Source of the DNA: Rhodospirillaceae bacterium
GTDB lineage: Bacteria; Pseudomonadota; Alphaproteobacteria; GCA-2731375
Assembly: GCA_018660265.1 (NCBI GenBank)
Contig: JABJKS010000051.1
Coordinates: forward strand, 186,001-250,000
Direction of reading: 5' to 3'
DNA length: 64,000 bases
Positions 58,836 to 62,729 of this stretch are shown here, one piece after another; positions within the stretch are counted from its first letter, which is position 1, and each line of letters begins with the position of its first letter. Both the position numbers and the translations under genes were made by a program. Below the pieces are notes generated by a model. That model worked only from the letters and a program-made list of their open reading frames with translations, made no database searches and was not told the origin of the DNA.

Positions 58836-59779
58836 GGAGTTTCAAAGGCCGATCGCAGGGCGGCAGCCGCATGATCCAGGGCTACGATGCCTTCATCAAC
58901 CTTGCCGCCCATGCGGGCAAAGCCGTGCAGCATGCCTTTATAGCATTTGTATTCCACCGCCACGCCCGCTTTGGCCAGGGTTTCCGCATAGGCCCGGCCT
59001 TCGTCGCGCAGGGGATCATATTCCGCTGTTTGGATCCAGGCGCGCGGCAGATTGACGTGATACTTCGCCAACTGGGGGGAGGCGCGGGGGTCGGACCTGG
59101 CATCCCGGTCGGGCAGGTACAGATCGGCAAAAGTTTCGAGGGACCGGTGGGTCAGTAAATAGCCCTCGCCGTTCTCAACCTTGGATTTGTTGTCCGCAGT
59201 GAAATCGAGGGTCGGATAAATCAAAATCTGCAGTTTCAATTGAATGTGCTTGTCCGTATCAGATAGGACCAGGGCGACGGAGGCAGCGAGATTACCGCCG
59301 GCGGAATCGCCGACCACCGCCAGGCGCGCGGGATCGCCGCCGAAATTTTCGGCCTCTGCCGCCACCCAACGTGTAGCTGCCAGGCAATCTTCTAATCCGG
59401 CAGGAAATTTATGTTCCGGTGCCAGGCGATAATCGACCGAGACAATGATGCAGCCTGCTTCATGGGCCAGATAACGGCACATATGGTCATGGCTTTCTAA
59501 CGAGCCGATGACCCAGCCACCGCCATGAAAAAATATGCCCACGGGCAAGGCAGTGGTCACGGATACGGGCGTGTAGATGCGAATAGGCAAATCGTTGTTG
59601 TCGCCGCCCGGGATCGTCCGATCCTCCACCGTATGCAAATCACCACTGGCATGGTGATAAACCGAGGTGCGCGCCTCATAGGCGGCGCGGGCGATAAGAT
59701 GATCATCTTGTCCCAAGGCGCCACCGCCTGCGGCGGCTATCTCCTGCAAAATCGCAGCGCATTGTGGGTCCAGGGTCAT
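58832..59779 (-). CDS. Alpha/beta hydrolase, HSL (hormone-sensitive lipase) family
   Basis: 315 aa esterase. The HSL oxyanion motif HGGGW is at 85-89 and the nucleophile S159 is in GDSAGG. DPLRDEG and GMLHGFARM supply the probable Asp and His of the triad. HSL-type bacterial enzymes favour short acyl esters. It lies between the membrane cyclase and dusA with 4-nt overlaps on both sides, so it is translated as part of one operon. Confidence 0.93.
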
Positions 59780-61092
59780 AAACTCTCCTCTTTACCGTCC
59801 AGCAAATACCACGTCGTCATCTCACCCTTGCCCTTTACCGTGATCTCACCACGGGGGGCAAGATTATATCTATTATCCAGGCGTTGGCGCAGATCATCGG
59901 AAACCTGAATTCGGTCCGGCTCACCCAAGGTTTGCATACGCGAGGCGGTGTTTACAGTATCGCCCCACAGATCATACATAAAGCGGCGCTGGCCAATAAC
60001 CCCCGCCGTCAGGCTGCCGACATGAATGCCGATCCGTAAATGCAGCGGCTGGCCATCAGGATCATGTACTGCCGTTGCCGCCCTGCGCATGGCCAAGGCC
60101 AAATCCGCCATGGCACTGGGGTAGTTGCCGCCGTCATCGGGCACGCCGCCTGCAACCATATAGCTGTCACCAATGGTCTTAATCTTCTCCAACCCATAAT
60201 GCGCCGTCAGGTTGTCGAAACTGGCAAACAACTGGTTCAGCAGGGCCAGGATCTGGTCCGGGCGGCTGCGGGCGGCAATTTCCGTGAACCCGACAATATC
60301 GGCAAACAACACCGTCGCATCGCCATATTCATCCACCACCGTTTCACCCCGCTGCAGCCGCTCCGCCACGGGGGCGGGCAGGATAGACGTCAGCAGATCA
60401 TGATAACGGGCCCGCTGATCATCCAGACGCCGGGTATTCAGATGATCCATGCGCTGTTGTTTCTCCGCCCGATACAGGGCTGCGATGCCGACAACATTGG
60501 CCGCGAACAGTTGCGCCGCCAACATGCCGAGGAGCTGTGGATCCACGACGTCAGCGAAGGACGTAAATACCAGGTAGACCACACTGGCCGTCGTAACGGT
60601 CGATATGCAATAGGCAAAAATCAAAGGAACGACGAGGTAGCTTGCCAGCACCAACAGCATAAAGCCGGGTAAATACATTTGCGGCACGTCTACCATGACA
60701 TTGGTGAGGCACGTCGCCAGCGTCATGGCGTGAACGGCAAAGGCCATCAGGGCCGGCCAGCGGGTACGGAAAAATTCCGTGTAGGTCAACGCCTGCAGAC
60801 CCAAAAGGCACAGGGTCAATAGTGCCGTGCGCCACAACACGAAGGTCATGGCACCGGCGGGCAGGACAAGGGGGTCGATCGCAGCGAAACCCAATTCCAC
60901 CGCGATGGCCAACCACAGGACAAATCGCGCCTGGCCAAGGTTACGGCTGCGTTCCGTGCTGCGGAAATCCCGCTCCAGATCATTATCCAGAAACACCAGA
61001 CGGGGCCCCATGTGTCCCCATTCAAGGTTTTCCATCGTTTGATCCCGCGCGATATTTAAGGCAGGCGTGATCGCTGCGTCACCGACCGTCAT
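59776..61092 (-). CDS. Membrane class III adenylyl cyclase
   Basis: 438 aa. Six hydrophobic helices span about residues 57-205, with no recognisable sensor domain. A linker of ~45 residues leads to a C-terminal class III cyclase. Metal aspartates are D265 (FADIVGF) and D309 (KTIGDSYM); K305 and D374 (MYDLWGD) give ATP rather than GTP specificity; N381 and R385 complete the active site. It should make cAMP. The start ATG is preceded by GGGAA. It opens the operon cyclase-esterase-dusA-crotonase and is divergent from a second cyclase. Confidence 0.94.
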
Positions 61093-61153: not shown

Positions 61154-61205
61154 GTTGGCCGCAGTTTCCAGTCTGCTACTTGAATAGGCCGTGGATCATC
61201 CATAA

Positions 61206-62729
61206 ATGATAGCAAGAATGAGCGCCGCACAGCCCTATAGACTTAGCATCGAAACCGCATCAACCCCTGTTCAGGCGATGCGGAACGGTACCCTATTGGC
61301 GGAAAGTGCCGATACGCTGGTCATGCACGAAACCGGGTTGCAATCTTTTCATTATTTTCCCAGGGGCGCGGTCCAGGATGGCTTGCTGACGGCTTCGGAC
61401 CGGCGAACTTTTTGTCCCTTCAAAGGTACGGCCAGCTATTGGCACCTTAATGGTCCTGATGGGTTGGCTGAAAACGCCGCCTTCAGCTACGAAACGCCGT
61501 TCCCCGAGGTTGACGAAATTGCTGGGCATATTGCCTTTATGGACGATGTTCTGGATCAACCGTTGTGTCTGGCGGCCGCCGATACGGACCTGTCCGGCCC
61601 CTTGGTTGATTGGCTTTTGCGGGAGGCGTGGATGTACAAGACGCCGGGGGAGTTGACGGAACAGTTCGGCCGGCAGTTGGTTGCCATGGGCATGCCCTTG
61701 TGGCGGCTGGGGGTTGGCATCTGGACCTTGCATCCGCAACTGGCCGGGCGCAATTATCATTGGCTGCGTGATGGCGATGGGGTTGTTGAGGGGTCGACGC
61801 CCCATGGCATGTTGCTGACGCCGGCCTATTTGAACAGTCCGGTCCGTCAGGTCAGTGAAGGCTTGGGCGGGGTCCGCCAGCGGCTGAACCAACCCGGCAA
61901 GTCAGAATTCCAGTTTCCCGTGATGGAGGATTTGCGTGCACGGGGCGGTACCGACTATGTCGCCATGCCATTGCCGTTTTCCGATGGCCAGATCAATACC
62001 CTGACCCTGACCTCCGATCATCCGGACGGCTTTTCCACCGCCGATCTTGGCGCGGTCTTTCAATGTGTTTTTGGCCTTAGCCGGTTTTATGAAACCATGT
62101 CCCTGCATCAAAACACCCGCACTTTGTTGACCACGTATTTGGGTCTACGTTCGGGCACACGTGTTCTGAACGGGCAGACCCAACGTGGTCAGGGGGAGGA
62201 AATTCGTGCCGCAATTCTATTTTGCGATCTGCGCAATTCCACCCAACTGGCAGCCGCCATGCCCAGGCGTGACTATCTTGATTTGCTGAACAATTATTTC
62301 GAAATCGTGGCGGACCCAATTTTAAGTCGTTGGGGTGAGGTCCTGAAATTTATCGGTGATGCTGTTCTAGCGATCTTTCCCGTTGAAGGTGATCCCCGTG
62401 CGGCCTGTGCATTGGCCCGTGATGCGGCACAGGAGATCGTTGCCCGTCTGGCAGAGACAGAGGGGCCAGCCCTGCGTTGTGCCATTGGGGTGCATGTGGG
62501 CGAAGTGACCTTTGGCAACGTGGGCGCGCCGGAGCGGTTGGATTTCACTGTCATCGGCTCTGCCGCGAACCTGGCCGCGCGCCTGTCGGAACAATGCAAG
62601 GTCCTTGATGAGGCCTTGCTATTTTCCGGTGCCGTGCAGAATGCGCTGCCCGATGACATGACCACCCTGGGCCGTCACGATCTGCACAACATCGCCGACG
62701 GAACGGAAATATTTAAAATTCCAGCCTAA
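61206..62729 (+). CDS. Cyclase with N-terminal DUF427-like domain and C-terminal class IIIb adenylyl cyclase
   Basis: 507 aa soluble protein. Residues ~24-115 look like DUF427: HETGLQSFHYFPRGAVQDGLL, TFCPFKGTASYWHL and AAFSYETPFPEVDEIAGHIAFM. A middle region (about 145-310), seen at the start of many alphaproteobacterial cyclases, precedes the catalytic domain. Metal D341 (FCDLRNST) and D385 (KFIGDAVLAIF), K381, N455 and R459 are all present. T448 replaces the Asp used by class IIIa, as in bicarbonate-responsive class IIIb enzymes. ATG 61218 is an alternative start. No membrane helix. Confidence 0.9.
   Translation: MIARMSAAQPYRLSIETASTPVQAMRNGTLLAESADTLVMHETGLQSFHYFPRGAVQDGLLTASDRRTFCPFKGTASYWHLNGPDGLAENAAFSYETPFPEVDEIAGHIAFMDDVLDQPLCLAAADTDLSGPLVDWLLREAWMYKTPGELTEQFGRQLVAMGMPLWRLGVGIWTLHPQLAGRNYHWLRDGDGVVEGSTPHGMLLTPAYLNSPVRQVSEGLGGVRQRLNQPGKSEFQFPVMEDLRARGGTDYVAMPLPFSDGQINTLTLTSDHPDGFSTADLGAVFQCVFGLSRFYETMSLHQNTRTLLTTYLGLRSGTRVLNGQTQRGQGEEIRAAILFCDLRNSTQLAAAMPRRDYLDLLNNYFEIVADPILSRWGEVLKFIGDAVLAIFPVEGDPRAACALARDAAQEIVARLAETEGPALRCAIGVHVGEVTFGNVGAPERLDFTVIGSAANLAARLSEQCKVLDEALLFSGAVQNALPDDMTTLGRHDLHNIADGTEIFKIPA

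Follow-up and report, generated by a model that had tools for sequence, protein, structure and literature searches.

Genes at the locus

The window, i.e., the whole 64,000-nucleotide stretch of DNA that was analyzed, contains an open reading frame at positions 61206-62729 of the forward strand that codes for 507 amino acids. According to the ORF, Pfam, and hydropathy analyses, it encodes a DUF427 domain, a putative GAF-like domain, and a class III cyclase domain, in this order. No transmembrane segment is found in the protein, with the top 19-residue hydropathy value equal to 1.15.

Upstream of the gene, a promoter-like block TTGAAT-N16-ATAAAT (61180-61207, forward strand) is kept in close orthologues, being present in 9 of their 10 upstream regions, each time 9-11 nt before the ATG that corresponds to Met5. 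This pattern matches the window once, against a chance expectation of 0.03, a figure that is optimistic since the pattern was picked after viewing the sequences. Some orthologues lack the ATG at 61206, which overlaps the -10-like element. Because the conserved block stands 9-11 nt before the Met5 codon, translation probably starts at Met5 (61218-61220, forward strand) and not at 61206. The arrangement also suggests that the mRNA of the fusion is leaderless or nearly so. An intergenic palindrome TGTGC-N7-GCACA was considered as a regulator site and dropped, as it is missing in relatives.

On the reverse strand, positions 59776-61092 hold a second class III cyclase (PF00211, E 1.3e-58), for which the hydropathy profile indicates an N-terminal hydrophobic (membrane) region. 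This gene is transcribed divergently from the fusion and retains its position next to it in most members of the genus, lying on the same contig in 8 genomes (G000, the genome of the window, and G002, G004, G005, G007, G009, G010, and G012). The two genes may share a control region. Among the more distant relatives examined, none showed this cyclase next to the fusion. Downstream, an amidohydrolase of the D-aminoacylase type (PF07969, 62731-63999, reverse strand) is convergent with the fusion; the relatives examined did not show it as a neighbor of the fusion. The search for an operon partner or a clue to a ligand found no neighbor shared beyond close relatives within the genus.

As for the rest of the genome (5.5 Mb), 33 class III cyclase domain matches were obtained, 2 of which apparently belong to one ORF, giving about 32 cyclases. 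Together with about 9 cNMP-binding proteins, they make up a large cAMP network for a genome of this size.

Domain composition of the fusion protein

The DUF427 domain anticipated in the original prediction is confirmed by the profile search: PF04248 matches residues 22-113 (61269-61544, forward strand) with E 1.7e-27 and 95.5 bits, covering positions 1-92 of the 93 in the profile, with the curated cut-off for this family equal to 22.1 bits. The motifs quoted in support of the domain are present as well, whereas its supposed limits, residues 1-90, have to be shifted to 22-113. In the comparison with PDB sequences, residues 27-115 align to the solved DUF427 protein 3djm (E 1.1e-12). The conserved core of the family, Y-x-P ... 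C-P-[FYW]-K-G-x-A ... W/F-x-Y ... F, was checked against free and tandem copies and is fully present. The domain is followed by a little conserved linker (residues 114-130, 61545-61595, forward strand).

The middle third of the protein, about residues 131-318 (61596-62159, forward strand), had been overlooked in the original prediction. In the protein of the window this region has no Pfam match, and a profile of it finds no relative in PDB (best E 0.7). The genome also encodes a paralogue with 38% identity over residues 133-504, which matches PF01590 (GAF) in the corresponding region at 1.1e-6, above the cut-off, and 1 of the 16 fusions scanned against Pfam matches GAF_2 weakly (0.0081). The region is read as a divergent GAF-like domain, mainly on the basis of the paralogue match. 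The putative GAF-like domain and the cyclase form a core common to a large set of alphaproteobacterial proteins, many of which have no DUF427.

The C-terminal domain (62160-62720, forward strand) matches PF00211 (Guanylate_cyc) over residues 335-463 with E 4.6e-9, and the cyclases OaPAC, CyaC, and CyaB among PDB sequences with E from 7e-20 to 1e-14. All six catalytic positions are intact, namely the metal-binding D341 and D385, the purine-specifying pair K381 and T448, as well as N455 and R459. Thus, the C-terminus is indeed a complete class III cyclase, with a PF00211 match, two metal aspartates, and the transition-state Asn and Arg. The threonine expected at the purine-specifying position is T448, and a pair of Lys plus Thr, not Asp, assigns the domain to class IIIb. 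Judging by these residues, the domain would convert ATP to cAMP, and the whole protein is best regarded as a soluble class IIIb adenylyl cyclase, predicted to be a dimer. Among the 30 fused proteins compared, T448 is present in all, K381 is kept in 25 and replaced by Arg in the other 5, and N455 is replaced by Ile in one; since these positions differ, cyclase activity or specificity may vary among the fusions.

Distribution and origin of the fusion

A survey of fusion frequency, as called for in the original prediction, covered 386 genomes sampled evenly from Alphaproteobacteria. A DUF427-cyclase fusion occurs in at least 20 of them, from 13 families; the strict cut-off makes this count a minimum. 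Both Pfam domains were found in all 16 fusions scanned. The fusion is present in most of the genus, and all 30 fused proteins compared have its N-terminal segment, the absence of which from all relatives would have spoken against the prediction. Two plasmids of Parasedimentitalea (Rhodobacterales) also carry the fusion, where RefSeq names the product "DUF427 domain-containing protein". In a phylum sample with a strict cut-off all fusion matches fall within Alphaproteobacteria, and no fused relative was found in the viral and phage collections. In the literature searched, no paper ties DUF427 to a cyclase, with some matches to the string "DUF427" being DUF4278, DUF4279, or a misprint. The fusion appears to be unstudied, though the architecture is already visible in RefSeq.

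DUF427 of any kind is found in 151 of the 386 genomes (about 39%), as well as in other phyla. It had been described as normally a stand-alone protein, which holds only in part: tandem DUF427-DUF427 proteins are common, one of them being encoded in this genome, and fusions to cyclases are found in the numbers given above. The tandem protein of this genome has 303 amino acids and is located at L001:1063-1971 (G000 C4:41668-42312). Such proteins recur over many alphaproteobacterial families, and in the tree their first repeats group apart from the second ones.

When 62 GAF-cyclase proteins are placed in a tree, those with the fusion cluster, with 3 changes of state versus 21 in shuffles, and one of these 3 is a relative with a frameshift-split gene that still carries DUF427. 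The whole fused group has moderate support (84), with one unfused protein near its base. These data are consistent with a single origin of the fusion. In the tree of the DUF427 domain, the fused copies adjoin the first repeats of tandem DUF427 proteins, which is to be taken as a lead, given the small number of alignment columns and the choice of free copies from the top-scoring matches. Because proteins with this GAF-cyclase core but no DUF427 are widespread, DUF427 would be a modular add-on input.

In a close relative, a one-base deletion near residue 155, at the GAF boundary, splits the fusion (L005:6001-7520, the same gene as G007 C54). Nucleotide identity of this gene is about 76% upstream of the deletion and about 88% downstream, a step that suggests recombination, an assembly join, or uneven constraint. 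The fusion gene is split in genome G131 as well.

Conservation and fold of DUF427

Within the fusions DUF427 evolves under purifying selection. In comparisons within the genus its dN is about 0.17-0.30 with dS above 1.1; the corresponding dN is 0.12-0.17 for the cyclase and the GAF-like domain, and it is mostly higher for the linker. Glu42, Pro52, Thr68, Cys70-Pro-Phe-Lys-Gly74, Ala76, Tyr95, and Phe111 are invariant in the 30 fused proteins. Most of these residues are conserved in free DUF427s too, and Cys70 and Lys73 are invariant both in fused and in nearly all free copies. Low dN versus dS, together with the invariant residues, argues that DUF427 in the fusions is functional and not a relic.

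A zinc-less version of the beta-tent fold has been attributed to DUF427; the cereblon CULT domain, MsrB, RIG-I, and MSS4 are reported to have the same fold (PMC4287342). Its defining trait is a pair of beta-meanders with a hairpin inserted. As this fold is that of the ligand-binding domain of cereblon and of MsrB, a small-molecule pocket is favored for DUF427. At the sequence level, DUF427 shows no significant similarity to other beta-tent domains, including MsrB. AlphaFold2 models built on shallow alignments have pLDDT equal to 32 for the whole protein and one relative, and 34 for residues 1-135 and two relatives, values too low to judge the fold, the pocket, or the dimer geometry.

Proposed mechanism and alternatives

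The working model is as follows. The GAF-like domain directly before the cyclase would act as a regulatory and dimerizing module, as in the large alphaproteobacterial cyclase family. A DUF427 related to the first repeat of tandem proteins would have joined the N-terminus once, early in the GAF-cyclase family. A small ligand would most likely bind in a conserved pocket that the beta-tent fold of this domain would provide, and the binding would make the GAF-cyclase dimer more or less active. The resulting cAMP would then work via the cNMP-binding proteins of the cell. Ligand control of cAMP appears to be the best explanation because it accounts for the GAF-cyclase core, for a selected add-on with an invariant Cys-Lys-aromatic core, and for the presence of about 32 cyclases and 9 cNMP-binding proteins. 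We consider it somewhat more probable than not that the protein works as a soluble class IIIb adenylyl cyclase, in the form of a homodimer, with a ligand-binding DUF427 that tunes cAMP output. In this model the domains, the residues, their conservation, the clustering, and the selection are observed, and cAMP production, the dimer, ligand binding, and the direction of control are inferred. The sensory role originally suggested for DUF427 is plausible, given the widespread core without DUF427 and the purifying selection. A broader version, in which DUF427 is a new ligand-sensing domain whose fused and free copies bind one metabolite in a cereblon-like beta-tent pocket, here setting cAMP, is more tentative and may well prove wrong.

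DUF427 could alternatively be structural or catalytic, not sensory. The GAF-like middle domain could be the main sensor, with DUF427 only stabilizing, localizing, or docking the protein, e.g., by pairing with free DUF427 proteins. Such an arrangement would agree with the many relatives in which the GAF-cyclase core occurs without DUF427, and with the fact that a separate DUF427 protein is found in 18 of the 20 fusion genomes versus 131 of the 366 others (Fisher p 1.5e-6, uncorrected for relatedness and genome size). However, this co-occurrence also fits a ligand shared by the fused and the separate proteins, and the invariant residues are of the pocket type (Cys, Lys, aromatic), not just surface ones, so we regard a GAF-like sensor with an auxiliary DUF427 as unlikely. 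Still less probable is that DUF427 is an enzyme, and that through the fusion a catalytic step on its substrate is linked to cAMP output or regulation works by turnover. Its conserved Cys70 and Lys73, as well as the fold it shares with MsrB, which is an enzyme (PMC4287342), point in this direction. At the same time, the sequence link to MsrB is not significant, the fold also occurs in binding proteins, the cereblon CULT domain among them, and no report of an activity or a ligand for DUF427 was found in the literature searched. Finally, the frameshift in L005/G007 and the split gene in G131 might be taken as signs of an assembly artefact or a decaying gene. The survey contradicts such an origin, which has a negligible probability: intact copies of the fusion come from many independent genomes, complete plasmids among them, and the gene is under purifying selection.

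Comparison with known systems

Upstream of their cyclase domains, CyaB and OaPAC carry N-terminal sensory domains, GAF in the former and BLUF in the latter. With Spirulina CyaC (1wc0), P. aeruginosa CyaB (3r5g), and OaPAC (5x4t), the protein of the window shares the catalytic domain, the metal aspartates, and the Thr at the purine position. However, all three have no DUF427, whereas the input part here consists of DUF427 and a divergent GAF-like domain. Closer to the fusion are GAF-like/cyclase proteins of Sinorhizobium and other alphaproteobacteria, which are 35-45% identical to it over residues about 130-505 and have both of these domains but not the N-terminal DUF427. Vice versa, free and tandem DUF427 proteins, such as 3djm and the 303-residue protein of the same genome, have the same domain and its hallmark residues but no cyclase. 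In the fusions the aromatic residue that follows Cys-Pro is Phe without exception, and in free DUF427s it is Trp, Tyr, or Phe. As for the cereblon CULT domain, MsrB, RIG-I, and MSS4, the fold is reported to be common, but DUF427 differs by having no zinc site (PMC4287342).

The conserved domain combination is thus a real variant on the class III cyclase theme, and DUF427 would widen the set of input modules of these bacteria, whose cyclase repertoire is very large. The fusion itself does not reveal what DUF427 binds; since the enzyme linked to it has a read-out that is easy to follow (cAMP), it offers a practical assay for finding the ligand. Among the genomes with DUF427, an unusual expansion is observed in the 2.7-Mb alphaproteobacterial genome G093, which has 13 matches to the domain.
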